Assembly: GCF_000718165.1 (NCBI RefSeq)
Contig: NZ_JOEY01000065.1
Span: 1 to 42,417, forward strand
Direction: 5' to 3'
From: Streptomyces fulvoviolaceus
Lineage (GTDB): Bacteria > Actinomycetota > Actinomycetes > Streptomycetales > Streptomycetaceae
DNA length: 42,417 nt
Shown here: piece after piece, positions 7,086 through 27,097 of the stretch
Layout: every line of letters begins with the position of its first letter
Position numbering within the stretch: the stretch's first letter is position 1
Made by a program: the position numbers and the translations under genes
The notes under the pieces: model-generated
What the model was told of the DNA's origin: nothing
The model's input: only the letters and a program-made list of their open reading frames with translations
Database searches by the model: none

Positions 7086-7094
7086 GATCGATCC

Positions 7095-7817: not shown

Positions 7818-7827
7818 CGTCTCTTCC

Positions 7828-9168
7828 TCATCCCGCCAGGCTGAAGCGCTCGAAATGGGTCTGCGCCTTGGGCACGTTCAGCTCGCGCAGGCTGCCCAGC
7901 ACGGCGTTCATCATGGGCGGCGGTCCGCACAGGAAGACGTCCCTGTTCGCGATGTCCGGCACCAGCCGGGCGAGCTCTCCGGCCGCCAGCTTGTCGGGCA
8001 CGGGCGGGCCGGTGACCAGGTGCAGTTCGGCGCCCTTGGCGTGGGCGAGCTCCCGCAGCTCCTCGTAGAGGACGGCGTCCCGGTCCGTGGCCACGCGGTA
8101 GATGACGACGGCGTGGCCGTGCAGCTCCTCCAGCAGGGCCCGGATGGGGGTGACGCCGACACCGCCGGCGATGAGCAGGGCCTCCGGCCGGGTGCGGTGC
8201 AGCGCGGTGAAGGCGCCGTAGGGGCCCTCGGCGAAGACGCGCGTGCCGACCTTGAGGTGCCGCAGGGCCGCGGTGCCGTCGCCGGCGACCTTGGCGGTGA
8301 GGCGCAGGGTGCGGCCGTCGGGGGCGGCGGAGAGGGAGAAGGGGTTGGCCTGCCACCAGCGGTCGCGGGTGAGGAAGCGCCAGAGGAAGAACTGGCCGGC
8401 GCGGGCGGGCAGTTTGTCGAGGTCCTTGCCGCTGATGTAGATCGAGACGACGTTGTCGTTCTCCGGGACGACGGCGGTGACCCGGAACTGGTGGCGCCAG
8501 TTCCGCCACAGCGGGAGCACGAGGCGGCCGAGGACGACCGAGCCGAGCGCGACGCCCCACACCGCGTACCAGTACGCCGTGGCGACGGACGAGGAGGCGA
8601 AGGTCGTGCCGACGGCGACCTGGTGGGTGAAGGCCAGCACCACGGCGACGTACGTGTACAGGTGGATGAAGTGCCACGTCTCGTACGCGAGACGGCGCCG
8701 GGCGTAGCGGGCCGAGACGGCGCCGACCGCGAGGATGATCCCGAACGCGACGATCGCGCGGAGGATGCCCTCGGTGGTCTCGGCGAGGTCGACGACCGTA
8801 CCGATCGGGCCGACGTCGGTGCCGTCGGCGTAGCCGAAGGCGATGAAGACGGCGTGCCCGAGCAGCGTCCACAGGAGGCCGAAGCCGGTCCAGCGGTGCC
8901 AGGAGGTCAGCCGGTCCATGCCGATGCGGCGGTCGAGCCAGGGCAGCCGGGCCACCAGCACCAGCTGGAAGGCCATGATGAGGGCGCCGTAGAGGCCGAA
9001 GAGGCGGCCGATCACGATGAGGGCGTTCGAGGCGAAGCCGGCCTGGGCGAAGAAGTAGGCGACCACGGCCGCGTTGGCGGCCAGCACGGCGTAGAGGCCC
9101 GTGCGGGCCACCACCCTGGGGCGTTTTATCGCCGTGGGGGGCGCAGGGGGCGATTGGACGGTCGTCAC
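7828..9168 (-). CDS. Ferric-reductase-like membrane flavocytochrome (FNR-type oxidoreductase)
   Basis: The 446-residue protein has an N-terminal ferric-reductase-like membrane domain (about residues 20-220, six hydrophobic segments) with candidate heme-ligating histidines in SWHRWTGF, GHAVFIAF, WHFIHLYTYV and FTHQVAVG. A cytoplasmic ferredoxin-NADP reductase module follows: FAD loop NPFSLSAAP, NAD(P)-binding GGVGVTPIRALLEEL and the C-terminal LCGPPPMMNAVL. It would take electrons from NAD(P)H through FAD and heme across the membrane. The next two genes encode a doubly flavinylated exported protein and ApbE, so the three probably form one extracytoplasmic electron-transfer chain; the final acceptor is unknown (ferric iron or quinone are options). 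The GTG start at 9168 is set by AAGGAG eight bases upstream. Confidence 0.9.
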   Translation of the reverse strand: MTTVQSPPAPPTAIKRPRVVARTGLYAVLAANAAVVAYFFAQAGFASNALIVIGRLFGLYGALIMAFQLVLVARLPWLDRRIGMDRLTSWHRWTGFGLLWTLLGHAVFIAFGYADGTDVGPIGTVVDLAETTEGILRAIVAFGIILAVGAVSARYARRRLAYETWHFIHLYTYVAVVLAFTHQVAVGTTFASSSVATAYWYAVWGVALGSVVLGRLVLPLWRNWRHQFRVTAVVPENDNVVSIYISGKDLDKLPARAGQFFLWRFLTRDRWWQANPFSLSAAPDGRTLRLTAKVAGDGTAALRHLKVGTRVFAEGPYGAFTALHRTRPEALLIAGGVGVTPIRALLEELHGHAVVIYRVATDRDAVLYEELRELAHAKGAELHLVTGPPVPDKLAAGELARLVPDIANRDVFLCGPPPMMNAVLGSLRELNVPKAQTHFERFSLAG

Positions 9169-13778: not shown

Positions 13779-14816
13779 TCAGGAGGAGAGCTTCTCCGAC
13801 TTCCCTACGGCCGCCGCGAGTTGCTCGACGACCGGCGCGTACCCGGCGTAGCTGTAGCGCTCCTCCATGGACCACGGCACCGTCTGCCCGGCCTTGACGG
13901 CGGGCAGTTGGCGCCAGGTCGACTTCTCGGCGAGCTGGGCCGGGGTCATGGCGTTGGAGCGGTTGTCGATCATGATGAGGTCGGCGTGGTACTTGTCGGC
14001 GTTCTCCCAGCCGAGGAACTCCCAGAAGCCCCACTCGTCGCTCTTCTTCCCTTCGACGAACTCGACCCCGAGGTCCTTGAAGTAGGCGAGGTCGCAGTAG
14101 GAGTCGGGGACGGCGACGTACATGTTCTCCGCGTCGCCGGACATGGCCATCACCTTCAGGCCCCGGTTGGCCCGGGCGGCTCCACGCAGGGTCTCGACGG
14201 CCTTGTCGAAACGGGCCCTGGCGTCGGTGACCTGACGCGTCCTCAGGTCGGCGCCGAGCGACTCGGCGAGTGCGGCGGTGCGCCCGAGCGGCTTGAGGAG
14301 GGAGGTGCGGGCGACGCTGATGCCGAGCGTGGGGGCGAGGGCCTCGATCTTCTTCACGCTCCCCTCGGGGACGTACCAGAGGTCGGGCGCGGGGAACATG
14401 TTGCTGATCAGGAGGTCGGGCTCGAGCGTCGCGTACTTCTCGATGTTGAACTGGCCCCATTCGGTGCCGAGGCTGGTCAGCTTCGACACGTCCATGGCAC
14501 CGGCCTGCGGGTTGGGTTTGCCGTCGATGGGCTTGCTGGGGCCGAAGACTCCGGTGCACTCGATGCCGTAGTCGAACAGGGCGGCGGCGGTACTGACGAA
14601 CGCGACGAGCCGCTCGGGCCTGCGGTCCGTCCTGACCGTACGGCCGCGGTCGTCCTTGAACGACCAGGCACCCGAACCGGCCTGCGAGGGAGCGTCCTTC
14701 CCGCCCGAGTCGTCGGAGCACGCGGCCAGCAGCGGGCCGAGGGCGAGGGCGCCGCCCGCCGCGAGCAGGCGTCGGCGGGAGGGTCCGGAAGGGCGGGCGG
14801 AAACCTGCACAGACAT
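13779..14816 (-). CDS. Iron-siderophore ABC transporter substrate-binding lipoprotein
   Basis: The 345-residue protein has a twin-arginine-like, lipoprotein signal (SRRRLLAAGGALAL then lipobox LLAAC) and a periplasmic-binding-protein fold of the Fe-siderophore/B12 class: PERLVAFVSTAAALFDYGI, EKYATLEPDLLISNMF, a long linking helix and a C-lobe ending in KSTWRQLPAVKAGQTVPW. Such lipoproteins capture ferric siderophores for an FecCD-type permease, but no such permease is adjacent, so it would use one encoded elsewhere. An iron-box-like sequence overlaps the start codon, suggesting DmdR/IdeR-type repression when iron is plentiful. It lies 14 bases beyond the peroxidase stop on the same strand, and the box would give it its own promoter. 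Confidence 0.9.
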   Translation of the reverse strand: MSVQVSARPSGPSRRRLLAAGGALALGPLLAACSDDSGGKDAPSQAGSGAWSFKDDRGRTVRTDRRPERLVAFVSTAAALFDYGIECTGVFGPSKPIDGKPNPQAGAMDVSKLTSLGTEWGQFNIEKYATLEPDLLISNMFPAPDLWYVPEGSVKKIEALAPTLGISVARTSLLKPLGRTAALAESLGADLRTRQVTDARARFDKAVETLRGAARANRGLKVMAMSGDAENMYVAVPDSYCDLAYFKDLGVEFVEGKKSDEWGFWEFLGWENADKYHADLIMIDNRSNAMTPAQLAEKSTWRQLPAVKAGQTVPWSMEERYSYAGYAPVVEQLAAAVGKSEKLSS

Positions 14817-14834
14817 AAGGGCAGGCTAACCTAA
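14816..14834 (-). promoter_or_regulatory. Iron-box-like operator (DmdR/IdeR type)
   Basis: On the minus strand the 19 bases TTAGGTTAGCCTGCCCTTA match the streptomycete iron box consensus TTAGGTTAGGCTCACCTAA at 15 of 19 positions. The site runs from the stop codon of the peroxidase gene to the first base of the binding-protein start codon. Binding there would block transcription start for the siderophore-binding lipoprotein. The left half-site is perfect, the right half degenerate. Confidence 0.7.
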
Positions 14835-15775
14835 CCAATACTCTGCAGGAAGTCGGCCGGGGGCGCGAAGAACAGGGTTCCGGTGACCGCCCGCGAGTAG
14901 TCGAGGAGGGGGTCGGGGCCACCCGACCCGGTGCCGAGGAACATCTTGCGCAGCATGGTCTCGGGCACCTCGGGTGTACGCGCGTAGCAGACGAAGTACG
15001 TTCCGAACTCGCCGTGTCCGGGGCGTCCGAAGGGCATCGCGCCGCGCAGGATCTCCAGCTCCTCGCCGTCCGGGCCGGTCACGGTGTTCACGTCGACGTG
15101 CGAACCGGGCACGTCCAGCTCGATGTTGGTCAGCTTGGTGCGGCCGATCACCTTCTCCTGGGCCTCCACGGCGAGGGCATCCCAGGCGTCCACGTCGTGG
15201 ACGTACTTCTGGACGATGGCGTACGAGCCGCCGCCGAACCCGGGGTCCTCCTCCCCCACCACCGCCGCCTCGGCGGCTGCCGGGCCGACCGGGTTCTCGG
15301 TGCCGTCGACGAAGCCGAGGAGGTTGCGCGAGTCGAAGTAGGAGAAGGCCTGGACCTCGTCCTGGACGGTCACCGCGCCGCGCAGCCGGCGCAGCACCTC
15401 GGTGGCGAGGGCGAAGCACAGGTCGGTGCGGGCGGCCCGGATGTGGAAGAGCAGGTCGCCGGGCGTGGACACGGCGTGGTGCCGGTCCCCCGCCAGTTCC
15501 CGGAAGGGGTGCAGTGCGGCGGGGCGCGGCAGGCCGAACAGCCGGTCCCACGCCTCCGACCCCACTCCGGCCACGCAGTTGAGACCGCCGTCGGGGCTGG
15601 GGAAGCCGACGGCCCGCACCAGTCCCGCGAGAGCGGACAGCAGCTCGCGTACGGCGGGCTCGCCGCCCGGTTCGACCGTGACGACCAGGAACACCGCGAC
15701 GGACGACGGCGGACTCAGGACCGGCTGCGGAAGCGAATCGGTCTTCGGCACGGACCTGGATACCGACGACACCAC
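14831..15775 (-). CDS. DyP-type heme peroxidase
   Basis: About 314 residues with the dye-decolourising peroxidase hallmarks: GFVDGTENP (catalytic Asp of the GxxDG motif), SHVDVNTV region with the probable proximal heme His, and FGTYFVCYAR with the distal Arg. It lacks an N-terminal Tat signal, so it looks like a cytoplasmic B-type enzyme rather than secreted EfeB. The start is GTG 15775, set by GAGGAG nine bases upstream; a second GTG follows immediately and an upstream ATG at 15826 has no such site. It oxidises substrates with hydrogen peroxide; heme or iron-related roles are proposed for relatives. It sits just upstream of the iron-siderophore binding lipoprotein and 133 bases after the metallophore-like operon. 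Confidence 0.92.
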   Translation of the reverse strand: MVSSVSRSVPKTDSLPQPVLSPPSSVAVFLVVTVEPGGEPAVRELLSALAGLVRAVGFPSPDGGLNCVAGVGSEAWDRLFGLPRPAALHPFRELAGDRHHAVSTPGDLLFHIRAARTDLCFALATEVLRRLRGAVTVQDEVQAFSYFDSRNLLGFVDGTENPVGPAAAEAAVVGEEDPGFGGGSYAIVQKYVHDVDAWDALAVEAQEKVIGRTKLTNIELDVPGSHVDVNTVTGPDGEELEILRGAMPFGRPGHGEFGTYFVCYARTPEVPETMLRKMFLGTGSGGPDPLLDYSRAVTGTLFFAPPADFLQSIG

Positions 15776-15907
15776 GGCGCCCCTCTCCTCGAAGCAACAT
15801 CTCCGGCGGGCGGTCAGGACGCCCACGACACGATGCCCGGCGGAAACGGCTCCGATACCGATTGCGGCGAACTCTTGGGTTCCGTGCGGGAGTACGGCAC
15901 TTGTCGG
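15776..15907. other. Intergenic gap between the ABC ATPase gene and the peroxidase gene
   Basis: Both neighbours are on the minus strand. Apart from the peroxidase ribosome binding site near 15785-15790, I see no convincing terminator hairpin, metal box or small gene. The peroxidase could therefore be read through from the long upstream operon or have its own undetected promoter. Confidence 0.4.
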
Positions 15908-17395
15908 TCAGGTCCGCAGACCGGTTCCCGCCTCGAGAACCCATCGGGCGGACCCCTGCTCGACGAGTTCGCCCGCGTCCACCACGACTACGCGGTGGGC
16001 GAGTCGCGCGGTCTCCTGGTCGTGCGTGATGAGGACGAGCGACAGGCCGCCCCGGTCGCGGACCAGGCCCGCCAGGAGGTCGAGGATGCCGCGCCGGGTG
16101 ACCGTGTCGAGGCCGGAGGTGATCTCGTCGCAGATCAGCACGCGGGGGTGGGCGAGCAGGGCGCGGGCGAGGGCGGCGCGCTGGAGTTCGCCGCCGGAGA
16201 GTTCGGCGGGGCGGCGGTGGGCCATGTCGTCCGTGAGACCCAGGCGGGCCAGGGTGGTCAACGCCTCGTCCGTGGCGGCCTGTTCGGCGGCGCCGCGCAG
16301 CCGGACGGCCGTGCGGGCGACCTGGGCGACGACGGGCCGGTGCTCGTCGAAGGCGGCCCGGGCGTCCTGGAACACGTACTGCACGGCGGCGAGTTGGGCG
16401 CGGCTGCGGTGGCGCAGGCTGTGCGGCAGGGCCGTGCCGTCGAGCAGGACCTCGCCGTCGTGGTCGCGGTGGAGCCCCGCAAGACAGCGGGCCAGCGTGG
16501 TCTTGCCACTGCCCGAGCGGCCGACGACGGCCAGGCATTCACCGGAGTTCAGGGTGAGGTGCGGGGCGCGCAGTACGGTGGTCCGGTCGTGTACGGCGGT
16601 CATGTTCCGTACTTCCAGGACGGGTTGACCGGCGCTCGCCTCCTCCCGCGGGGCGGCGTCGTGCGCTTCGAGCAGCCGGCGGGTCCACTCGTGCCGGGGG
16701 GACAGCCACAGCCGCTCCACCGGCCCCGACTCCACGACCCGGCCCGCGCGCATGACCAGCACCTCGTCGGCGAGGGCCTGGACGACGTCGAGGTCGTGGC
16801 TGAGCAGGACGACCGCGATACCGCGTGCCGCGACCGCCGCCAGCTGGTCGACGATCCGGCTCTTGGTCAACGCGTCCTGCCCGGTGGTGGGTTCGTCGGC
16901 GACGATCACCCGGGCGCCGAGAAGAAGGGCCTGGGCGAGGACGACGCGTTGCTGCTGGCCGCCGGAGAGTTGGTGGGGGTGGCGGCGCAAAAGGGCTTCG
17001 GCGTCGGGGAGTTGGGCGTCCAACATGGCCTGGAGGACGCGTGCGCGGGCCGCCGTGCGGCGTTCGGTGCGAGGCAGGTGGCGGGCCTGGGGGCGGGCGA
17101 TGTCGTGGAGGAGGGCGCCGACTCGACGGGCCGGGTTGAGGACGGCGGCGGGATGCTGGGGCACGTAGCCCACCAGGCCGCCCTCGGTCAGGCGTACGTC
17201 GCCCGTGACGCGGGCGCCGGGCGGGTACTCCCCGAGCAGCGCGAGGCCCGTCGTGGTCTTGCCGCTGCCGGAGGCGCCGACCAGGGCGGTCACCTTGCCG
17301 GGCAGGACCTGCAGGTCGACGCCGTCGACGATCGCGCGGCCGTCGATCTCGACGCGCAGGTCGCGGATCTCGGCGACGGTGTCTGCGTGGCTCAC
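15908..17395 (-). CDS. Fused double ATPase of a peptide/nickel/opine-type ABC importer
   Basis: One 495-residue chain carries two complete ABC ATPase domains, corresponding to the separate OppD/OppF or NikD/NikE subunits. Domain 1 (about 5-250) has Walker A GASGSGKTT, signature LSGGQQQRVVLAQAL, Walker B VIVADEPTTGQDA and H-loop LLSHDLDVV. Domain 2 (about 265-490) has GRSGSGKTT, LSGGELQRAALARAL, VLICDEITSGLD and LITHDQETA. The Cys-rich C-terminal OppD/F iron-sulfur motif is absent from both halves. GTG 17395 overlaps the permease stop (GTGA). It powers import of the substrate bound by the lipoprotein encoded at 19160-20734 and is the last gene of the metallophore-like operon. Confidence 0.93.
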   Translation of the reverse strand: MSHADTVAEIRDLRVEIDGRAIVDGVDLQVLPGKVTALVGASGSGKTTTGLALLGEYPPGARVTGDVRLTEGGLVGYVPQHPAAVLNPARRVGALLHDIARPQARHLPRTERRTAARARVLQAMLDAQLPDAEALLRRHPHQLSGGQQQRVVLAQALLLGARVIVADEPTTGQDALTKSRIVDQLAAVAARGIAVVLLSHDLDVVQALADEVLVMRAGRVVESGPVERLWLSPRHEWTRRLLEAHDAAPREEASAGQPVLEVRNMTAVHDRTTVLRAPHLTLNSGECLAVVGRSGSGKTTLARCLAGLHRDHDGEVLLDGTALPHSLRHRSRAQLAAVQYVFQDARAAFDEHRPVVAQVARTAVRLRGAAEQAATDEALTTLARLGLTDDMAHRRPAELSGGELQRAALARALLAHPRVLICDEITSGLDTVTRRGILDLLAGLVRDRGGLSLVLITHDQETARLAHRVVVVDAGELVEQGSARWVLEAGTGLRT

Positions 17396-18207
17396 GGGCG
17401 GCGCCCTTTCTTTTCCAGTACGGCGTCGAAGAGCAGGTTGGTGCCCGTCGTCAGCGCCACGATCAGCAGGGCGGGCACCACCACGGCCCAGGGCTGCACG
17501 AACAGGCCGGTGCGGTTGCGGTCGACCATGACCGCCCAGTCGGAGGCGTCCGGCGCGACCCCGACGCCGAGGAAGGCGGCCGTCGACACCAGGTACAGCA
17601 CGCCGGTCAGCCGGATCCCGGCGTCGGCGGCCAGGGTGCGCAGGATCGACCGGCCGACGTGGCCGACGGCGATCCGCCACCACGTCTCCCCCTGCATGCG
17701 CAGCGCCTCGACCGCGGGCCGGGCGGCGACCTCGCCCGCCGCGGCCCGTACGATCCGTGCCGCGTCGGGCACGTTCACCAGCGCGACGAGCAGCGCGAGC
17801 CCGGCGGCGCCCGGGGAGAACACGGACGCCACGAGCAGGATCAGCAGCAGCGACGGGACGGCGAGCAGCACGTCGAGCGGCCGCATCAGCACGTCCTCCA
17901 GCCGGCGCAGGTGCGTGAGCGCGCTGACGAGGCCGACCGGCAGGGCGACGAGGTAGGCCAGCGCGGTCGCGGCGAGCGCGGTCAGCACGACCGTACGGCC
18001 ACCGAGCAGCACCTGGCCCCATACGTCCCGGCCCACGAAGTCGGTGCCGAGCCAGTGCCCGCCGCCGAGAGTGAAGGAGACGGCGCGGGGGCCGGGGTCA
18101 CCGGCGAACAGGGGGCCGAGCAGGGCGAGGAGGAGGGGGACGGCGACGATCGCGAGGCCGAGGGAGAGACGGCCGGTGTGCCGCCGTAGGGACTTGGTGT
18201 CGGTCAC
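17392..18207 (-). CDS. DppC/NikC-type ABC importer permease
   Basis: This 271-residue membrane protein is the second permease of the importer. It has the OppC/DppC N-terminal layout (one helix, then GTDFVGRDVWGQVLLGGRTV, the family's LGTDxxGRDxxSRxxxG motif) and the coupling EAA loop around EALRMQGETWWRIAVGHV. About six hydrophobic segments are seen. The GTG start at 18207 overlaps the preceding permease stop. It pairs with the DppB-like subunit. The substrate class of this family covers di- and oligopeptides, nickel chelates and opine metallophores. Confidence 0.93.
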   Translation of the reverse strand: MTDTKSLRRHTGRLSLGLAIVAVPLLLALLGPLFAGDPGPRAVSFTLGGGHWLGTDFVGRDVWGQVLLGGRTVVLTALAATALAYLVALPVGLVSALTHLRRLEDVLMRPLDVLLAVPSLLLILLVASVFSPGAAGLALLVALVNVPDAARIVRAAAGEVAARPAVEALRMQGETWWRIAVGHVGRSILRTLAADAGIRLTGVLYLVSTAAFLGVGVAPDASDWAVMVDRNRTGLFVQPWAVVVPALLIVALTTGTNLLFDAVLEKKGRRP

Positions 18208-19163
18208 GCCGCCACCGCCGCCCTCGGTGTCAGCCGGTGAGCCACCACATCCGCGCCGAGATTGAGCACGACCGTCAGCACCCCGAACACCACCGCCAGC
18301 CCCTGCACCACCGGTACGTCACGTTCGGCCACGGCGTTGAGCAGGACCGTGCCCAGCCCCGGGATCACGAAGAGCGCCTCGACCACGATGACGCCGCACA
18401 GCAACCAGTCGACGGTGCGGGCGAGTTGCTGGGCGGCCGGGGCGAGGGCGTTCGGCAGGGCATGGGTGTAGCGGACGCGGGCGCCGGGGACGCCGTAGCG
18501 GCGGGCGTGGGCCGCGTACGGCGAGGCGAGGGCGTCGACCATGCCGGCGCGCACCAGACGGGACAGGGAGCACACCGGGCGGGAGAGGAGGACCAGCACC
18601 GGGAGGACGAGCGCCGCCGGGTGGGCCAGCAGATCGGTGCCGTAGCCGACCGCCGTCGGTGGCAGCCAGGCCAGCTTCAAGGCGAGGACGGTCACCAGGA
18701 GCACCCCGAGGGCGAACTCGGGGACCGCGTACACCGCGAGGGTCACGGAGCTGACCAGCCGGTCGACGAGCCGTCCCTCGTGGCGGGCGGCGAGCACGCC
18801 GAGGCCGAAGCCGGCCGGGACGAGCAGCGCGAGGGTGAGCGCGGCCAGCAGCAGGGTCGGACCGAAGCCGTCGGCGATGTACTGGCCGACCGGCCGCCCC
18901 GAGGTCAGGGACGTACCGAAGTCGCCCTGCGGCAGACCCGCCGCCCAGTCCCCCAGCCGCTCGTACCACGGCCGGTCGAGGTGCATGGCCTCGCGGATCG
19001 CGGCGATGCGTGCGGGGTCGGGCTGGTCGCCGGCGAGGGCGACCGCCGCGTCGCCCGGCAGCGCCTCGGTGAGCGCGAAGACCAGCAGCACGACGGCCAC
19101 GGTCTGCGCGGCGCCGAGGAGCAGCCGCCGGGCGACGAAGGAGCGGAGACCACCCACTGTCAC
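18204..19163 (-). CDS. DppB/NikB-type ABC importer permease
   Basis: About 319 residues with the OppB/DppB pattern: FVARRLLLGAAQTVAVVLLVFALTEALPGDAA near the N-terminus, HLDRPWYERLGDWAAGLPQGDFGTSL (conserved GDxGxS loop) and the EAA coupling loop YAAHARRYGVPGARVRYTHALPNAL. I took GTG 19163 because its GTGA overlaps the binding-protein stop, as throughout this operon; GTG 19172 is a three-codon longer option. It forms the import channel together with the next gene product. Confidence 0.93.
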   Translation of the reverse strand: MTVGGLRSFVARRLLLGAAQTVAVVLLVFALTEALPGDAAVALAGDQPDPARIAAIREAMHLDRPWYERLGDWAAGLPQGDFGTSLTSGRPVGQYIADGFGPTLLLAALTLALLVPAGFGLGVLAARHEGRLVDRLVSSVTLAVYAVPEFALGVLLVTVLALKLAWLPPTAVGYGTDLLAHPAALVLPVLVLLSRPVCSLSRLVRAGMVDALASPYAAHARRYGVPGARVRYTHALPNALAPAAQQLARTVDWLLCGVIVVEALFVIPGLGTVLLNAVAERDVPVVQGLAVVFGVLTVVLNLGADVVAHRLTPRAAVAA

Positions 19164-20734
19164 GCGAGCCACACCTTGTCGAAACGGGCCCAGTCGAGCG
19201 TGTTGGCGGGCGCCTTCGTCTCAACTCCCTTCACCGTGCGGGCCGTTCCGATGATCCAGTCGGCGAACCCCCAGATGAGGAAGCCGCCCTCGGTGTACAG
19301 ACGGCGCTGCATGCGCTCGTAGACGGCGGCCCGTTCGGTCCTGTCCCGGGTGGACTGCGCCTGCTCGTAGAGTGCGTCGAAGTCCTTGTGCCGCCACTTG
19401 GTGGCGTTGGTGGTGGAGTCGGTCAGCAGCCGCTGGGAGATGTGCGCCTCGATGGGCATCGCGCCGGAGCGGTAACAGCACAGGGTGCCGTTGTCGAGGA
19501 TGTCGCTCCAGTAGGAGTCCTTGCTGCCCATCTTCACGTCGATCGTGACGCCCGCCTTCGCGGCCTGGTCGCGGAAGATGCCGGCGGCCTCGGTGAACCC
19601 GGCGGCGACGGCCGAGGTGTCCAGGGTGACCTTCAGCTTCTCGGCACCGGCCTGCTTGAGCAGGGCGCGGGCCCGGTCGAGGTCCTGCTCGCGCTGCGGG
19701 AGGCCGTCGGCGTAGTACTCGTAGCCCTTCCCGAACAGGTCGTTGCCGACCACGCCCGCCCCGGACAACGCCCCGTCGACGAGCTCCTTCCGATCAGCGA
19801 TCAGGAAGAACGCCTCGCGCACCCGCTTGTCGTCGAAGGGGGCCCGGTCGGTCTTCATGCAGAACGCCTGCATCGCGCTGTTGCGGAGCCGCACGATCTC
19901 GATCTGGCCCTTGCCCTCGTGGGCACGGGCGGTGGTGGGGTTGAGTTCGTGGGCGTACTCGACCTGACCGCCGAGGAGGGCGTTGACGCGGGCCGACTCC
20001 TCGTTGGCGACGACGAATTCGAGCTCGTCGAGGTGCGGGGCGCCCTCCCAGTAGTCGTCATAGCGGTGGAAGACGGCGGAGCGGCCGGGGGCGAAGGAGA
20101 CGAAGCGGAAGGGGCCGGAGCCGATGGGCTTCCTGCCGAAGTCGGTACCCGTGGCGTTCTCGGGGACGATGTACGCGCCGAACGCGGCCAGGATGTTGGG
20201 GAATTCAGCGGTGGGCCGCTTGAGCACGAACTCGATCGACCGCTCCCCCGTGGCGCGGCTGGCGTCGAGGTCGAGGGGTTCCAAAGACGCCTTCGCACGG
20301 AACGTCTGCTCGGGGTCGACGATGCGGCGGTAACTGTAGAGGACGTCCTTGGCGGTGACCGGGCTGCCGTCGTGGAAGGTCGCCTCGCGCAGGGTGACCT
20401 GCCAGCGGTCCAGGGTCTTGTTGGACTCCCACTGGGTGGCGAGGCGGGGCTCGGCGGACAGGTCGGCGCCGTAGTCGGCGAGCTTGTCGTAGAGGGCCTT
20501 GGCGCGGGCGACGTCGGCGAACAGGTTGGCCAGGTGCGGGTCGAGGGTCTCGCTCGCGCCGCCTCCGGCGAAGGCGGCGCGCAGGCGACCACCACGCTTC
20601 GGCGTGCCTCCGCTGCCGCTGTCCGCCTTGTCGTCCGTGCCGCCTCCGCAGCCGACGAGGGCGAGGGCGGCCGCACCGGTGGTGGCGGCGAGGAAGCCGC
20701 GGCGGCGCAGGCCGGGAAAACGTTCGTCGTACAT
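19160..20734 (-). CDS. Family 5 solute-binding lipoprotein (peptide/nickel/opine type)
   Basis: The 524-residue protein begins with RRRGFLAATTGAAALALVGC, a lipoprotein signal with a twin-arginine-like start and the lipidated Cys at about residue 29. The rest is a family 5 binding protein: TLDPHLANLF, DPEQTFRA, the signature around WQVTLREATFHDGSPVTAKDVLYSYRRI, then KPIGSGPFRFVSF and VREAFFLIADRKELVD. Two adjacent Cys residues occur at NGTLCCYRSG. In this family ligands include peptides, nickel-chelator complexes and staphylopine-type metal complexes. It is the capture component of the importer encoded just downstream. AAGGA six bases before the ATG sets the start. The gene begins 15 bases after the methyltransferase stop. 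Confidence 0.93.
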   Translation of the reverse strand: MYDERFPGLRRRGFLAATTGAAALALVGCGGGTDDKADSGSGGTPKRGGRLRAAFAGGGASETLDPHLANLFADVARAKALYDKLADYGADLSAEPRLATQWESNKTLDRWQVTLREATFHDGSPVTAKDVLYSYRRIVDPEQTFRAKASLEPLDLDASRATGERSIEFVLKRPTAEFPNILAAFGAYIVPENATGTDFGRKPIGSGPFRFVSFAPGRSAVFHRYDDYWEGAPHLDELEFVVANEESARVNALLGGQVEYAHELNPTTARAHEGKGQIEIVRLRNSAMQAFCMKTDRAPFDDKRVREAFFLIADRKELVDGALSGAGVVGNDLFGKGYEYYADGLPQREQDLDRARALLKQAGAEKLKVTLDTSAVAAGFTEAAGIFRDQAAKAGVTIDVKMGSKDSYWSDILDNGTLCCYRSGAMPIEAHISQRLLTDSTTNATKWRHKDFDALYEQAQSTRDRTERAAVYERMQRRLYTEGGFLIWGFADWIIGTARTVKGVETKAPANTLDWARFDKVWLA

Positions 20735-20749
20735 GACTGGTCCTTGGTG

Positions 20750-21532
20750 TCAGATGGTGTGGAGGCGCGCGACAAGGTGCAGCCGGTCGCCGTCGGTGCA
20801 GGCGCCGGGCAACTCGCCCTGCCGCCATGGGGGTTCGGTGCGGGGCCCGGGTCGGTCATGGAGTTCGAGCACCTCGAAGCCGTGCGCGGCCAGGAAGTGC
20901 CGCAGCTCCTGCGGGAACAACAGCCGCCAGGCGGAGTGCTGTTCGACGGGCGCGGATCCGTCGTCCGTCGTCCATACGCGGGTACGGCGCAGCAGTTGGG
21001 CGGTGCGGTCCAGGGACAGGGTCGTCGTGGAGCGGAAGTCGGTGCCCTGCCAGGTGAAGGCGTTGACGGCCGGGGTGTCGAGGAGGTCGGTGCGCCCAAG
21101 GAAGTAGGCGCCGTTGCGCATCTCCGCGACAAGCAGTCCGCCGCGGGTGAGGGCGCGCCGACAGGAGGCGAGGAAACCGTCGAGCTGGGCGTTGGTGTGG
21201 CAGTACAGCAGGGAGCTGTCCAGGCAGACGACCGCGTCGTACTCGCCCAGGTCGAAGCCGTGCAGGTCGGCGCGGACATACACGGGCCCCGGATGGACGG
21301 TGCGGGCGTGCGCGAGCATCGCCTCGGAGAGGTCCGCGCCGGTCACCGTACGGCCGGCGGCGTGCAGGTGGGCGGCGTCGCGGCCGGTGCCGCAGCCCAG
21401 GTCCAGGACGCGCGGCCCGGCACCGTGACGGCGCAGACAGTCCTCGGCCCAGCGTCCGGCCAGCCGGTCGGGGTCGGGGAAGCGGGCCTCGTACAGCTCA
21501 GGGTTGTCGGTGAGGAGGTTGGCGCCGCTCAT
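20750..21532 (-). CDS. Class I SAM-dependent methyltransferase
   Basis: A 260-residue methyltransferase with the SAM-binding motif VLDLGCGTGRDAAHLH, acidic ribose-binding loop GADLSEAM, and motif around YDAVVCLDSSLLYC. The C-terminal part is typical of UbiE/BioC-like small-molecule enzymes (FPQELRHFLAAHGFEVLELHDRPG). It starts by ATGA overlap with the exporter gene and so belongs to the biosynthetic operon. A reasonable role is N- or O-methylation of the product, or an aminocarboxypropyl-type transfer from SAM; the motifs do not decide. I note that staphylopine-type pathways use a SAM-dependent aminobutyrate transferase, but this protein has a conventional methyltransferase look. Confidence 0.88.
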   Translation of the reverse strand: MSGANLLTDNPELYEARFPDPDRLAGRWAEDCLRRHGAGPRVLDLGCGTGRDAAHLHAAGRTVTGADLSEAMLAHARTVHPGPVYVRADLHGFDLGEYDAVVCLDSSLLYCHTNAQLDGFLASCRRALTRGGLLVAEMRNGAYFLGRTDLLDTPAVNAFTWQGTDFRSTTTLSLDRTAQLLRRTRVWTTDDGSAPVEQHSAWRLLFPQELRHFLAAHGFEVLELHDRPGPRTEPPWRQGELPGACTDGDRLHLVARLHTI

Positions 21533-22743
21533 GTGCGGGCCCTCTCCGCGGCCGGCGCCGGCACCGCGCTCGCCGGCAGTGCCCCGCGCCGGTGCAGCCA
21601 TGCCACCGCGCCCGCCGAGGCCAGGCCGAACAGCGCGCAGCACATCCAGGGCAGACGCTCGCCGCTGTCCATGGCCCAGCCGACGACAGTGTTGCCGACG
21701 GCCGCCGCGACGCCCGAAACGACGTAGAAGATCCCGAAGTACGTGCCGGTCAGCTCGGGTCGGCCGAAGCCGGGAATCAGCTCCATCACGAAGGGCGAGG
21801 CGACCATCAGGCCGAGGTAGAGCAGCAGGGCGCCCACCAGAACGGGCACGGTGCCCACGGTGAAGGCCGGCGGCACGAACGCCACCCCCATCAGAGCGAG
21901 CCCGACGGCGATCCAACGCGCCCTGCTGCCCTGGGATTTGAGCGTCCTCGTGATCCGCAGCTGCAGCGCCAGGTTCGCCAGCGTGCCGACGAGGAAGACG
22001 AGGCCCGCCGCGCCGTCCCAGCCGGTGGCCTGCCGGGCGCCCTCGGGCAGCAGCAGGTACAGCTGGTTCTCCAGGGTGAACATGCCGACCATGGCGAGGG
22101 CGAACGCCAGGAAGGCCCGGTTGCCCACGACCTCCCGCCAGTCCGCGAGCACCCCGCCCCCGGTCGGCTCGACCTGCCGTGCGGGCAGAACCATGGCCTG
22201 CGCCACCGTGAGCACGGCGAAGATTCCGGCGGCGGTGAGCGCGGACGTACGGAAGTCGACGAGGAGCAGCACGCTGCCCAGCAGCGGGCCGATCAGTGCG
22301 CCGGTGGTGGCGAAGACGTTGAACAGCGCGAACGCCTCCGCCCTCCGTTCGCCCGCCTCCTGCGCGAGATACGCCCGCACGGCCGGATTGAACAGCGCCC
22401 CGGCGAGCCCGCTCAGCACGGACGCGGCGAGCAGCACGGGCAGGCCGTCCCCGAGCGCGAACAGCGCGAACCCGACGGTCCGCAGGGCGCACCCGGCGAT
22501 GATGACGCCCCGCGCACCGAGCCGGTCGGCCGCGGAGCCGCCGATGATGAACAGCCCCTGCTGACTGAGGTTGCGCACCCCGAGGACCACTCCGACGACC
22601 GCCGCCGACATCCCCAGGTTGTCGGTGAGGTGGGTGGCTAGGTACGGGATGAGCAGGTAGAAGCCGATGTTGACGCCGAGCTGGTTGACCAGCAGGAGCC
22701 GGACGGCGAGCGGGAAGCCGCGCATCTCACGCCACGCCTTCAT
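21529..22743 (-). CDS. MFS exporter
   Basis: The 404-residue protein has twelve hydrophobic segments and MFS signatures (SAADRLGARGVIIAGCALRTVG in loop 2-3, AQEAGERRAEAFALFNVFATTGALIGPLLG between helices 4 and 5). ATG 22743 is set by GGAGGTG seven bases upstream; the ribosome binding site lies inside the end of the epimerase gene, which runs 17 bases into this one. In metallophore loci an MFS protein commonly exports the free chelator (for example CntE with staphylopine), and its place between biosynthetic enzymes and importer fits that role here. Drug efflux is the alternative. Confidence 0.9.
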   Translation of the reverse strand: MKAWREMRGFPLAVRLLLVNQLGVNIGFYLLIPYLATHLTDNLGMSAAVVGVVLGVRNLSQQGLFIIGGSAADRLGARGVIIAGCALRTVGFALFALGDGLPVLLAASVLSGLAGALFNPAVRAYLAQEAGERRAEAFALFNVFATTGALIGPLLGSVLLLVDFRTSALTAAGIFAVLTVAQAMVLPARQVEPTGGGVLADWREVVGNRAFLAFALAMVGMFTLENQLYLLLPEGARQATGWDGAAGLVFLVGTLANLALQLRITRTLKSQGSRARWIAVGLALMGVAFVPPAFTVGTVPVLVGALLLYLGLMVASPFVMELIPGFGRPELTGTYFGIFYVVSGVAAAVGNTVVGWAMDSGERLPWMCCALFGLASAGAVAWLHRRGALPASAVPAPAAERART

Positions 22744-23764
22744 ATGCCGACACCTCCTCGACTCCCAGACCCGGACGACCACTTGCGCGTACGACACCGT
22801 CCGCACCGCCGATCCCGGTCCACGGGTCGTGGGCGAGCAGCAGGTGTCCGTCGAGGTCGGCCCAGCGGGCGCGGTCGGCGAGGTGGACGGCGGGCGCGAG
22901 GCCGAGGGTGCTGGCGGTCAGGCAGCCGAGCATCAGCTCGGTGCCGCTGCCCTCGATCAACTGCGCTATGCGCAGGGCTGCTTGGGCCCCGCCGCACTTG
23001 GCGAGTTTGACGTTGACACCGTGGACCCGTCCGGCCAGCCGGCGCACGTCCTCCAGGCTCACGGCGTCCTCGTCGGCGATGACCGGGAGGGGTGAGCGGG
23101 CGGCGAGGGCGCCCAGAGCTTCCGGGTCGCCGGGGGCGAGAGGCTGTTCGACGGCCTCGACTCCGAGGTCCGCGAACCGGGGCAGCAGGGCGGTCGCCTG
23201 TGCCGTGGTCCACGCCCCGTTGGGGTCGAGGAGCAGCCGTGCCCTCGGTGCCGCGTCCCGGATGACCCGTACGCGCTCCACGTCGTCCTCGGGGTCGGGT
23301 GTGCCCGCCTTGACCTTGATGGCCTGGAAGCCGTCCGCGGTGAGGCGGCGGGCCTGGGCGGCCGCGTGCATGGGGGAGGTGATGCCGATCGTGCGGGCGG
23401 TTTCGGTCACGGGTGGCGCGGCCGCACCGAGGAGCCGGTGGACGGGGACGCCCGCGCGCTTGCCGACGAGGTCGAGCAGCGCGGACTCCACGGCGGCGGT
23501 GACGGCGGGCGGCAGGTCACCCGAGGGAAGCGCCTCCAGGGCGCTCTCGGGATCGGCGAACCGACTCAACTCCACGTCCCCGAGCAGCCGTACGAGCGTG
23601 TCGGCGTCGAGTCCGTAGTACACGCTGGTGACGGCCTCGCCGTACCCCCGCATCCCCTCGTGCTCGACGCTCATCCACACGGCGTCGCGTGCGGTCATGG
23701 TGGAGCGGGAGATGCGCAACGGCTCGGCGAGTTCGAGACGCACGGTGCGCAGGCGGGCTTTCAC
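22727..23764 (-). CDS. Dipeptide epimerase-like enolase superfamily enzyme
   Basis: 345 residues with the muconate-lactonising subgroup barrel: catalytic KxK in AIKVKAG, metal ligands Asp in LLDPNGAW, Glu in VEQPL and Asp in VIADEDA, and the opposing Lys in VNVKLAKCGG. The C-terminal WADLDGHLLL matches the DxD motif that in L-Ala-D/L-Glu epimerases binds the substrate's free amino group, so a dipeptide or N-aminoacyl amino acid substrate is likely. The GTG start overlaps the PLP enzyme stop (GTGA). Next to an ATP-grasp ligase this suggests a dipeptide is made and one alpha-carbon inverted. Peptidoglycan peptide recycling is the textbook role, but no murein genes are near. Confidence 0.9.
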   Translation of the reverse strand: MKARLRTVRLELAEPLRISRSTMTARDAVWMSVEHEGMRGYGEAVTSVYYGLDADTLVRLLGDVELSRFADPESALEALPSGDLPPAVTAAVESALLDLVGKRAGVPVHRLLGAAAPPVTETARTIGITSPMHAAAQARRLTADGFQAIKVKAGTPDPEDDVERVRVIRDAAPRARLLLDPNGAWTTAQATALLPRFADLGVEAVEQPLAPGDPEALGALAARSPLPVIADEDAVSLEDVRRLAGRVHGVNVKLAKCGGAQAALRIAQLIEGSGTELMLGCLTASTLGLAPAVHLADRARWADLDGHLLLAHDPWTGIGGADGVVRASGRPGLGVEEVSAYEGVA

Positions 23765-24843
23765 TGTGTCCTTCCCAAGGAAACGTCGATCGGATCGGTG
23801 ACCCTCGTGCAGCGCACCCACCCGTGCGCCTCGGTCGCATACGGGTGCGGTATCTCGACGGGACGGGTGGCCGCGGAGGCGGGGTCGAGGCCGTGCGCGG
23901 TGGTGAAGTCGTCGTCGTAGACCGTGCCGAGGTAGCGGTGCGGGCCGTCGGGGAAGACGGTGGCGACGACCGCCCCGGGGTGCACTCGGGCCGCCCAGGC
24001 GGCGACCCGGGCGGCCGCCCCGGTGCTCCAGCCGCCGCTGACGAAGCAGCCGCGGGCCAGTCTGCGGCAGCTGTCCACGGCCTCGGCGGGGCCGATCCAG
24101 TGGACCTCGTCGAAGGCGTCGTAGGCGACGTTGCGGGGGTGGATGCTGCTGCCGAGGCCGCGCATCAGGCGGGGCCGGGCGGGCTGGCCGAAGATGGTGG
24201 AGCCGGTGGCGTCGACGCCGATGAGCCGGAGCGCGGGCCAGTGCCGGCGCAGCGGGCCGATGACGCCGGCGCTGTGGCCGCCGGTGCCTACGCTGCACAC
24301 CAGGATGTCCAAGTGGTCGAGCTGGGCGGTGAGTTCGGCGGCCAGGGAGGCATATCCGGCGGTGTTGTCGGGGTTGTTGTACTGGTCGGGCCAGTAGGCG
24401 CCGGGCAGTTCGGCGAGGAGTTCCTGGAGCCGGGCGAGGCGGGCGGCCTGCCAGCCGCCCTGGACGGCCGGACGGTCGACGATCTCCAGCCGGATCCCGT
24501 GCGCGCGCAACAACTGCCGCATGGACGGCTCCAGTTCACTATCTCCGACCAGCACGATCGGATGACCGAGCGCCTGACCGGCGAAGGCGAGCCCGATGCC
24601 GAGCGTGCCGGACGTGGACTCCACCACCGGGGCGCCGGGCCGCAGTTCGCCGCGTTCGCGGGCGCCGAGCAGCATCGACACGGCGGCCCGCGCCTTCATG
24701 CCGCCCGCCGCGAGCCCTTCGAGCTTGGCCCAGAAACCTGGGTGGGCGCCGGGCAGGTCGACGGCGATGCGGACGACCGGTGTACGGCCGAGCAGGGCGA
24801 GCAACTCCGGGCGGGCGGCGGGGAGTACGGCGGTGGCGGTCAT
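23761..24843 (-). CDS. PLP-dependent cysteine-synthase/SbnA-like enzyme
   Basis: 360 residues of fold type II PLP enzymes. The Schiff-base Lys is probably Lys50 in GGMKARAA (canonical PGGSxKDR). The cofactor ring loop reads ESTSGTLGIGLA (76-85), where the usual TSGNTG Asn is replaced by Thr80; the phosphate loop is GTGGHSAGV; near the C-terminus SGGWSTGAA replaces the usual SSGA segment. Relatives such as SbnA condense O-phosphoserine with an amino acid to make N-linked diaminopropionate precursors; others make modified Ser/Cys. Here the enzyme is coupled by ATGA to the Rossmann protein and by GTGA to the epimerase. No SbnB-type dehydrogenase is seen, so the condensation product might be kept intact. 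The exact reaction is inference. Confidence 0.88.
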   Translation of the reverse strand: MTATAVLPAARPELLALLGRTPVVRIAVDLPGAHPGFWAKLEGLAAGGMKARAAVSMLLGARERGELRPGAPVVESTSGTLGIGLAFAGQALGHPIVLVGDSELEPSMRQLLRAHGIRLEIVDRPAVQGGWQAARLARLQELLAELPGAYWPDQYNNPDNTAGYASLAAELTAQLDHLDILVCSVGTGGHSAGVIGPLRRHWPALRLIGVDATGSTIFGQPARPRLMRGLGSSIHPRNVAYDAFDEVHWIGPAEAVDSCRRLARGCFVSGGWSTGAAARVAAWAARVHPGAVVATVFPDGPHRYLGTVYDDDFTTAHGLDPASAATRPVEIPHPYATEAHGWVRCTRVTDPIDVSLGRTQ

Positions 24844-25676
24844 CGCTCACCTCCACGACAGAGGTAGCGGTGGATGACGCCGGGCCCGCCGTCGAGCCAG
24901 AAGAAGGGGTACGGCTCCGCGCACACCGCGCTGACCCCGTGCCCGAGGAAGCGAGGCAGGACGGCGCTGCCCGTCTGGGCGAACATCACCAGCTGCTTGC
25001 CGTGCCGCAGCGCGTGCTCCCGCAGCGGCTCGAAGGTGCCGTTGCCCAGGGTCATGCCGGACACGAGCAGCGCGTCGCAGCGGTCGGCCGCGGTGAGCGC
25101 GTCGGTGACGACCGGTTCGCCCCACTCGGTCGTGCCGCCCTTGAGGTCGCACGGGACGTAACCGAGTCCACGTGAACGCAGCGCTTCCAGAAGGGAGTTG
25201 ACGACCCCGACCACGAGGACCGTGGCATCGGGCGCCAGGTCCAGGAGCTCGACCACCGCCTTCGCCCGGGCCCGGGACTTCTCCAGGGAGGATCCGGCGG
25301 GCAGCGCGAAGGAGCTCTCAGGGGTGTGCGGGGTGACGTGCATCAGATACGCGTCGAGCGCCGCCACGCGCACCGGCGCCAACGGGTGGTCCAGGAGCCG
25401 GGCCACATCGGCACCCACACAGTCGTCGAGCGCACCGTCCGGCAGTTCGCCGGGCTCCACCGCGCACGAGCCGACGGCCGCGCCGAGACGCAGGCTGAGG
25501 ACCTCGTTGCGATAGCCGGTGCCGCGCCCGTCGTGCCGTACGGCCTGCCGGGTGGTGAAGGCGACGGCTATGCGCTGGGTACCCGGGTCGGGGCCGAGGG
25601 CGCCGGAGCGGACGCGGTCGACGAGATCGTCGTACGTCTGATCTGTCCGCCCCGCCTGAGAAGTGACGGCGCTCAT
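24840..25676 (-). CDS. Rossmann-like protein resembling DUF364 (putative metal-chelation) proteins
   Basis: 278 residues. The N-terminal half is mixed with GYRNEVLSLRLGAAVGSCA and VAALDAYLMHVTPHTPE; the C-terminal half is a Rossmann-like domain with VLVVGVVNSLLEALRSRGLGYVPCDLKGG, then CDALLVSGMTLGNGTFEPL and QLVMFAQTGSAVLPRFLGHGVSAVCAEPYPFF. This layout resembles the DUF4213/DUF364 family, annotated as putative heavy-metal chelation proteins from structural genomics; I am moderately sure of that match. It starts by ATGA overlap with the ATP-grasp gene and ends by ATGA with the PLP enzyme, so it is part of the pathway. Candidate roles are a metal-handling partner or an unrecognised biosynthetic enzyme. 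Confidence 0.75.
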   Translation of the reverse strand: MSAVTSQAGRTDQTYDDLVDRVRSGALGPDPGTQRIAVAFTTRQAVRHDGRGTGYRNEVLSLRLGAAVGSCAVEPGELPDGALDDCVGADVARLLDHPLAPVRVAALDAYLMHVTPHTPESSFALPAGSSLEKSRARAKAVVELLDLAPDATVLVVGVVNSLLEALRSRGLGYVPCDLKGGTTEWGEPVVTDALTAADRCDALLVSGMTLGNGTFEPLREHALRHGKQLVMFAQTGSAVLPRFLGHGVSAVCAEPYPFFWLDGGPGVIHRYLCRGGER

Positions 25677-26923
25677 CGGACGACCAGCCCCGTCCGCACC
25701 GCGGCCAGCAGCCCCTCGACACGGTCCCGCGCCCCGAGCCCGTCCGGGTCGCCCGCCATGACGTGCCCCAGGTACTCGTTGTTGCTGCCGGCCGCCTTCA
25801 CAGCCTTGCCGGGCTCGGCGAGCTGGACCTCCAACACGTCCTCCCCATCGGAGAGTTGACCGAGCGCTTCGAGCGTGCCCGTCCGCTCCGGCACGAGGAA
25901 GCCGATGGCGGCGCTGCGCAGCCCGGTGTCCGTGCGCCGCAGGTCGGGGCGGCGGCCCAGGGCGACGTCCACGAAGGCGGCGGCGAGGTCGATGCCGGTG
26001 ACGTGGCGGACCAGCTCGGTGATGCGGTTGCCGGCGGGCCGGGGGTTGACCTCGACGACGCGCGGTCCGGCGGAGGTCAGCTTGATCTCGGTGTGGGCGA
26101 CGACGCCGTCGGTGAGGCCGAGGGCCTTGAGCGCGGCGAGGGCGGTCTGTTCGGCGGCCTCGGTGTCGGCGGAGGTCAGGTCCGCCGGGAACATGTGGCC
26201 GGTCTCGATGAAGGCGGGCGCTCCGCCGATGCTCTTGTCGGTCACGCCGATGACGTGGACGGCGCCCGCGTACGACACGGTCTCGATGCTGACCTCGGGT
26301 CCGTCGAGGAGCTCTTCGAGGAGCACGGCGGGCTCGCGCCGCTGCCCGCGGGCGTTGACCGGGAAGTCGGCCAAGGCCCGTACGGCTTCGGCGAGTTGGG
26401 CCTCGTCGTCCACACGGCGTACGTACATGCCCGCGCACAGGTCGACGGGCTTGACGACCAGCGGGTAGCCGATCTCCCGGGCAGCCCGGGCGAGGTCGGC
26501 CCACTCCTCGTGCAGGGCGAAGCGCGGGCCGGGCAGTCCGGCGTCGGCGAGCACCCGACGGGTGGCGTCCTTGCGGCAGGCGTTCTCGACCGCTTCGGGG
26601 CCCGGGCCGGGCAGGCCGAGGCGGGCGGCGATCCGAGCCACCGTCGGCAGGTAGTAGTCGCAGGAGGTGATCACCCCGTCGAATCCCAGCACCGTGTGCA
26701 GCCGCTCGACCTCGGCCGTCAGGGCCTCGGTGTCGTTGGTGTCGGCGGTGATCACATGGCGGGCGCCGAGCAGCGGGTGGGCCGTGCCCTCGGGCGCCGA
26801 GCGCAGGTAGTGGTGCAGGTCGCGGGTGAGGAACGTGAACTCGTTCCCGCCCTCCCGGATGGCCCGTGGCAGCAGCCTGCCCATCGACCCGACCCAGCTC
26901 TCGACCACCAGCAGATGAGCCAC
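25673..26923 (-). CDS. ATP-grasp carboxylate-amine ligase
   Basis: 416 residues of the ATP-grasp superfamily: N-terminal Rossmann-like domain (LLVVESWVGSMGRLL), ATP-binding LVVKPVDLCAGMYVRRV, metal-binding VVAHTEIKLTSAGPRVVEVNPRPAGNRI with the Glu and Asn ligands. It resembles L-amino-acid ligases and dipeptide-forming enzymes that activate a carboxylate as acyl phosphate and join it to an amine. As first gene of the operon it would build the peptide-like bond of the product. GTG 26923 is preceded closely by GGGGAG (spacing two), which is short; no better start is seen. Its upstream leader holds a long hairpin and, further up, a Fur/Zur-type box. Confidence 0.9.
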   Translation of the reverse strand: MAHLLVVESWVGSMGRLLPRAIREGGNEFTFLTRDLHHYLRSAPEGTAHPLLGARHVITADTNDTEALTAEVERLHTVLGFDGVITSCDYYLPTVARIAARLGLPGPGPEAVENACRKDATRRVLADAGLPGPRFALHEEWADLARAAREIGYPLVVKPVDLCAGMYVRRVDDEAQLAEAVRALADFPVNARGQRREPAVLLEELLDGPEVSIETVSYAGAVHVIGVTDKSIGGAPAFIETGHMFPADLTSADTEAAEQTALAALKALGLTDGVVAHTEIKLTSAGPRVVEVNPRPAGNRITELVRHVTGIDLAAAFVDVALGRRPDLRRTDTGLRSAAIGFLVPERTGTLEALGQLSDGEDVLEVQLAEPGKAVKAAGSNNEYLGHVMAGDPDGLGARDRVEGLLAAVRTGLVVR

Positions 26924-26931
26924 AACTCCCC
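26917..26931 (-). promoter_or_regulatory. Ribosome binding site region that mimics the leader hairpin arm
   Basis: On the mRNA this region reads GGGGAGUUGUGGCUC and spans the Shine-Dalgarno and GTG start of the ATP-grasp gene. The 3' arm of the upstream hairpin reads GGGGGGUUGU, five more bases, then GGCUC. The 5' arm could therefore pair with either the 3' arm or the ribosome binding site (about 14 pairs, one mismatch, a 5-base bulge). This is an observation about sequence; its regulatory use is inference. Confidence 0.5.
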
Positions 26932-26950
26932 TTTTCGTGCCGCGAGTTCA

Positions 26951-27015
26951 GAGCCTGTGAACAACCCCCCGTCGTCCGCCCGCAGCGGCGCAGGCGGGGG
27001 GTTGTTCACAGGCTC
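26951..27015 (-). promoter_or_regulatory. Perfect 20-bp hairpin in the leader of the metallophore-like operon
   Basis: The arms 26951-26970 and 26996-27015 are exact reverse complements over 20 bases (GAGCCTGTGAAC...CCCCCC), and the next pair (26971/26995) also matches. The loop is about 23-25 bases and GC-rich. It lies between the Fur/Zur-type box and the first start codon, so it would be in the 5' untranslated leader. It could act as an attenuator, a translation switch or an insulator between the divergent genes. No T-run follows on either strand, and I see no flanking target duplication to suggest a transposon. Confidence 0.8.
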
Positions 27016-27082
27016 GGAGATGTCAGGGCAGCCCGGCGGACCCCTCGGTCGGAAGGGGCCGGGCTTGACACGCACACGCTAT

Positions 27083-27097
27083 CGATAATCATTTTCA
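27083..27097. promoter_or_regulatory. Fur/Zur-family 7-1-7 operator-like box
   Basis: The minus strand reads TGAAAATGATTATCG. It matches the streptomycete Zur-type consensus TGAAAATGATTTTCA at 13 of 15 positions and the general Fur 7-1-7 form TGATAATnATTATCA about equally well. It lies in an AT-rich island (27080-27102) that stands out from the GC-rich surroundings, 160 bases before the ATP-grasp start and 40 bases before the divergent hydrolase start. A TTGACA at 27065-27070 could be the -35 of the plus-strand promoter, with the box over its -10. Which metal regulator binds is not decidable from sequence alone. Confidence 0.65.

Follow-up and report, generated by a model that had tools for sequence, protein, structure and literature searches.

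We suggest that a ten-gene operon of Streptomyces fulvoviolaceus, present in many other Streptomyces as well, encodes a zincophore system, in which a zinc chelator would be made, exported and reimported under control of the zinc uptake regulator Zur, and we put the probability of this reading at roughly three in four. The operon occupies positions 26923-15908, on the minus strand, of contig 65 (NZ_JOEY01000065.1) of the 11.58-Mb genome; the whole contig, 42,417 nucleotides long, is the window analysed here. The zincophore reading is favored because amino-acid carbon-nitrogen chemistry is combined with Zur-type control, with export and with dedicated import. It draws on gene content and order, an upstream Zur-type box, conserved catalytic positions, and the repeated pairing of DUF364 with an SbnA-like enzyme alongside Zur boxes and either of two kinds of importer, all of them read from sequence. 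An earlier sequence-only reading of this DNA had proposed that a chelator is made, exported and recovered; the comparative evidence supports this and narrows the metal to zinc, and we infer from it that zinc is the metal and that a chelator exists, along with the reaction steps and their sequence, the product and its class. No description of this operon was found in a search of open-access papers.

The ten genes (Table 1) are arranged as a single operon. Their families were assigned with Pfam and NCBIfam and their start codons were chosen by us; given these starts, the overlap is exactly four bases at seven of the nine junctions, the other two being a 17-base overlap between the epimerase and major facilitator superfamily (MFS) genes and a 15-base gap between the methyltransferase and solute-binding protein (SBP) genes. 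The sequence-only reading, which described ten minus-strand genes with mostly four-base overlaps, was thus borne out, and its gene families agree with Pfam and NCBIfam except that the two ATPases form a single fused gene. None of the ten proteins reaches a curated NCBIfam cut-off among the matches listed. In the importer, the double ATPase is NikD/CntF/CntD/NikE-like by NCBIfam with every score below cut-off, the best NCBIfam match of the SBP is of Opp5A/NikA type (151 bits against a cut-off of 600), and family scans for permease 1 were run on a longer frame from 19172. We read the N-terminus of the SBP as a putative twin-arginine lipoprotein signal.

The box at the head of the operon, TGAAAATGATTATCG, fits ten of the eleven fixed positions of the S. 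coelicolor Zur motif obtained by chromatin immunoprecipitation on microarrays, tGaNNatSatNNtCa, as given in a passage of PMC5472717. It had previously been called a Fur/Zur-type box; a metal-type box is indeed present, and Zur-type is the better name for it. The sequence-only reading had also proposed looking in other genomes for the ten-gene order and for the box upstream of it, and both were found. When the best site in the 300 bp upstream was scored in the 92 distinct relatives with at least that much sequence, it reached 10 in 55, 9 in 33, 8 in three and 7 in one, so that a site of at least 9/11 is kept in 88 of the 92. Sites of at least 10/11 were counted 56 times in the 26 kb of leader sequence, compared with eight times in the remaining 1,678 kb of these loci. 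In a control of 500 shuffles of 100 leaders (the window and duplicates included), seven reached 9 and none reached 10. The site of at least 9/11 begins 55-125 bases ahead of the gene in 94 of 99 relatives, and at -174 in the window. At the level of sequence, therefore, the operon has the conserved upstream operator, matching the S. coelicolor motif, that is expected of a Zur regulon member.

The gene order is equally well kept. Across genomes, 291 encoded DUF364 relatives were confirmed, of which the best 80 were kept; with 20 further loci these gave 100 type-A loci, in which the ten window proteins were searched. We counted all ten genes as present when the best tblastn match of each had at least 50% identity, in order and on one strand, so that the count refers to tblastn matches rather than open frames. 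Four of the loci are duplicates, leaving 96 distinct ones, and the relatives are not independent of one another. The full order was seen in 91/100 loci, or 87/96 distinct loci; among the nine distinct loci without the full set, six stop where their contig ends and three (L043, L047 and L054) are incomplete within a contig. Because gene order and box both recur in relatives, the association of operon and box appears to be more than chance. The DUF364 protein itself, counted without regard to the operon, was matched in 82 of 297 genomes sampled from the family (by bit score, 55 closely, 28 more distantly, two in both ways and one weakly) and in 33 of 394 in a class-wide sample, three of these weakly and over short stretches.

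We also searched the genome for the pattern TGAAAATGATTATCA, in which the final base of the box is replaced by the consensus base, allowing up to three mismatches, and obtained 29 matches versus five for the reversed control. Fewer than three mismatches were seen at this operon, at a family-5 importer operon on contig C57, and at the znuA promoter of a znuA-znuC-znuB-zur locus on contig C81, where the gene names on C57 and C81 were read from translations and a Fur-family match. The site of the C57 importer (L185; G000:C57:32998-33012) is one mismatch from the pattern and lies directly ahead of the family-5 operon. No biosynthetic gene was seen adjoining that operon, and perhaps the C57 importer takes up foreign zincophores.

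A second type of cluster carries DUF364 proteins that are 38-45% identical to that of the operon. We examined 39 such loci (19 + 20; L074 gave no match and was dropped). An SbnA-like enzyme is present in 38 of them, an MFS protein in all 39, a GHMP kinase, which by motif we take to be PduX-like, in 29, and a small methyltransferase in 13. A FecCD importer is present in 31 loci; a family-5 importer, 47-53% identical to that of the window, is found in three (L059, L234 and L238). The 583,576 bases of these loci contain 15 perfect Zur sites and 18 ten-of-eleven sites, compared with 0 and 2 in control stretches from related genomes (17 of an intended 20 stretches, one of them short; 257,853 bases), and 23/39 loci have at least one site of 10/11 or better. 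In 30/39 loci, at least one of the cluster genes that we recognised has a site of at least 9/11 in the 450 bp ahead of it. With as many as nine genes examined in a locus, and with a control density of 0.2 per kb for 9/11 sites, many of these hits would arise by chance; our argument for the second type therefore uses sites of at least 10/11.

We tentatively propose, at somewhat under an even chance, that the DUF364 protein and the SbnA-like pyridoxal-phosphate (PLP) enzyme form the catalytic core of an undescribed actinobacterial zincophore class, with DUF364 replacing the SbnB or nicotianamine-synthase/opine-dehydrogenase step and with family-5 or FecCD import under Zur. The operon protein exceeds the Pfam gathering score for DUF364 and has the two-domain fold. 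It shows 14% identity in structural alignment to the DUF364 structures 3l5o and 3npg, and unlike those proteins it is linked with Zur boxes and a partner resembling SbnA. A structure paper of 2010 (PMC2954201) proposed that DUF364 takes part in making a chelator; the association with Zur boxes and an SbnA-like enzyme described here would lend that proposal new support. Were the core reading true, it would give DUF364 its first function. The operon also places the function of DUF364 within reach of direct tests, because both the partner enzyme and the condition to use, zinc limitation, are defined. If these clusters are zinc scavengers, a common class would escape searches that rely on non-ribosomal peptide synthetase (NRPS), NRPS-independent siderophore (NIS) or opine enzymes.

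Several observations weigh against a Zur-controlled zincophore. The final consensus A is missing from the box of the window, four of the 92 relatives have no site of at least 9/11 within 300 bp, and the genome encodes four Fur-family proteins, so that members other than Zur could read a similar box. In L043, L047 and L054, four, five and seven of the ten genes, respectively, were recognised inside the contig; the break in L054 adjoins runs of N and may be an assembly fault. The SBP scores far under the NikA and CntA cut-offs. Among the second-type loci, 16/39 have no site of 10/11 or better, six of the 18 ten-of-eleven sites lie, by our reading of their positions, away from cluster promoters, and 5/39 loci have neither a FecCD nor a family-5 importer, some of them reaching a contig end. 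Sites of 9/11 are not enriched there (99 versus 52 in the controls, or 0.17 versus 0.20 per kb), and because they are no commoner than in controls they prove nothing alone.

The alternative that survives best is a metallophore for nickel, cobalt, iron or several metals, its box being read by one of those other Fur-family regulators. The permeases and ATPases do score best against nickel/cobalt and staphylopine-type models, although all remain below cut-off, and FecCD importers, usual for iron siderophores, are present in most second-type clusters. However, the znuA-znuC-znuB-zur locus of this genome lies behind the same motif, the consensus of the iron regulator IdeR upstream of the operon is no better than in shuffles, and no IdeR site of 14/19 or better was found in the 19 second-type loci examined for it. 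FecCD importers are moreover reported in actinobacterial zincophore clusters too, in a portion of PMC7438024. We therefore consider this alternative unlikely.

The enzymes point to amino-acid chemistry. The closest solved relative of the ATP-grasp ligase is the L-amino acid ligase BL00235 (121 bits), and the protein combines an ATP-grasp domain with LAL_C2, as expected of L-amino acid ligases; it matches NCBIfam PRK02186 over the N-terminal, ATP-grasp part only (214.6 bits, cut-off 625). For the SbnA-like enzyme, TIGR03945 SbnA is the best NCBIfam model at 242.8 bits, under the cut-off of 349.95, so that it does not qualify as an SbnA equivalog; SbnA is also its closest solved relative (141 bits). 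The Lys, Arg132 and Tyr152 positions of SbnA are retained, and that of Ser185 is Gly, as it likewise is in the above-cut-off SbnA of this genome, whose canonical SbnB-SbnA pair lies separately on contig C15. In the epimerase, the KxK, metal-ligand, second Lys and C-terminal DxD positions are all present and are identical in 95-97 of 97 sequences; we take these to be the motif roles of dipeptide epimerases. The protein reaches no NCBIfam epimerase cut-off.

It had been claimed from the sequence that the operon fits none of the staphylopine, EDDS/EDHA-like, coelibactin and desferrioxamine schemes, and the key enzyme families are indeed not among its ten proteins. Pfam and NCBIfam found none of the following in this set: nicotianamine synthase (NAS), opine dehydrogenase, NRPS module, IucA/IucC-type NIS synthetase and argininosuccinate-lyase-type protein. 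When the SbnB of this genome was used as a tblastn query (E 1e-5), none of 140 related loci gave a match. Opine-like zincophores (staphylopine, pseudopaline and bacillopaline) have a racemase or epimerase step in some cases, MFS-type export in some, and zinc-linked control. The operon shares with their clusters a co-located exporter (MFS) and importer (family-5). In published opine zincophore clusters (PMC7438024), export is by MFS proteins or other exporters and import by Opp-type or FecCD systems, FecCD being found in actinobacteria as well, which supports how the operon would work. It is nevertheless not classed as an opine zincophore because the defining enzymes, a nicotianamine-synthase-like protein and a CntM-type opine dehydrogenase, are missing; in their place are a dipeptide ligase, the SbnA-like enzyme, DUF364 and a methyltransferase.

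EDDS-type clusters carry an SbnA-like and SbnB-like pair and a lyase of the argininosuccinate-lyase family. SbnA-like chemistry is likely common to the EDDS (ethylenediamine disuccinate) system and the operon, but the operon loci lack both an SbnB match and, among the ten proteins, the lyase, and a ligase and an epimerase are added. The [S,S]-EDDS zincophore of Amycolatopsis japonicum is, like the system proposed here, actinobacterial and Zur-controlled, according to the parts of PMC6103462 and PMC12161575 that treat it. Coelibactin, EDDS and pseudopaline are named as Zur-controlled metallophores in a section of the review PMC6103462. Coelibactin of S. coelicolor is again a Zur-controlled candidate zincophore from Streptomyces, but it is described, in a passage of PMC3430247, as non-ribosomally made, whereas the operon has no NRPS. 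Finally, the SbnA/SbnB diaminopropionate pathway of staphyloferrin B and others shares an SbnA-like sequence with the operon, whose enzyme in contrast falls under the SbnA model cut-off and has no SbnB partner.

Taken as a zincophore system, the operon might work as follows. When zinc is short, Zur would leave its site at 27083-27097, allowing the ten genes to be transcribed together. The SbnA-like enzyme would join a phosphoserine-type substrate and an amine into a diamino or aminocarboxylate building block, which DUF364 may modify or condense further. The ATP-grasp ligase would then make a dipeptide bond, the epimerase would invert one residue of the dipeptide, probably an acidic one, and the methyltransferase would add a methyl group. 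The MFS protein would export the chelator, and the family-5 ATP-binding cassette (ABC) importer would recover its zinc complex.

The product of the same enzymes could also be a small modified dipeptide, formed during zinc limitation and acting as a signal or antimetabolite, with an importer that serves self-uptake rather than metal recovery. An L-amino-acid-ligase type ATP-grasp enzyme with a dipeptide-epimerase-like protein is in keeping with this, as is an MFS protein nearest to a drug-efflux model. Against it stand the Zur-type control, the complete importer in the operon, and the second cluster type, in which the DUF364/SbnA-like core recurs with a different class of importer behind a similar box; we give it only a slim chance. 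It is highly improbable that importer, epimerase and ligase instead salvage or remodel outside peptides (e.g., L-Ala-D-Glu wall peptides) and that nothing is secreted: the epimerase does resemble L-Ala-D/L-Glu epimerases and the importer does belong to an oligopeptide family, but the SbnA-like enzyme, DUF364, methyltransferase, MFS protein and Zur-type box would be left unexplained.

Table 1. Features of the candidate zincophore operon and its leader, in window coordinates.
Feature	Position	Strand	Basis or remark
Zur-type operator (predicted), TGAAAATGATTATCG	27083..27097	-	160-174 bases upstream of first start codon
21-bp perfect inverted repeat, 23-base loop, between box and first gene	26951..27015	.	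sequence
ATP-grasp ligase, L-amino-acid-ligase type	25673..26923	-	GTG start; Pfam ATP-grasp_4 + LAL_C2
DUF364 protein, PF04016 'putative heavy-metal chelation'	24840..25676	-	Pfam
SbnA-like PLP-dependent enzyme, beta-replacement type	23761..24843	-	PALP; TIGR03945
Dipeptide-epimerase-like protein, enolase superfamily	22727..23764	-	GTG start; Pfam, NCBIfam
MFS transporter	21529..22743	-	MFS_1; nearest NCBIfam model MdtH, 169 bits, cut-off 469
S-adenosylmethionine (SAM)-dependent methyltransferase	20750..21532	-	Methyltransf_25
Family-5 SBP	19160..20734	-	SBP_bac_5, 257.5 bits
Opp/Nik-type permease 1	18204..19163	-	GTG start at 19163; BPD_transp_1
Opp/Nik-type permease 2	17392..18207	-	GTG start; BPD_transp_1
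Fused double ABC ATPase	15908..17395	-	GTG start; ABC_tran twice in 495-aa protein

The inverted repeat in the leader was not found in 99 other leaders and is probably local to this strain. A second pair of its arms, with one mismatch each, was seen at G000:C39:13669-13688 and 13877-13896. Elsewhere, a protein that we read from its translation as GNAT-like has a family-5 binding protein and a weaker Zur-like site as neighbours (L189; G000:C48:29551-29565), and a similar protein adjoins the shortened operon of L047 (L047:2872-3474). Downstream of the operon, window positions 13779-15826 encode, in separate genes, a siderophore-type binding protein and a DyP peroxidase; an IdeR-like site (16/19) falls between these two genes at 14816. 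Further along, a row of ferric-reductase-like, flavin mononucleotide (FMN)-binding and ApbE family genes occupies positions 6348-9168.

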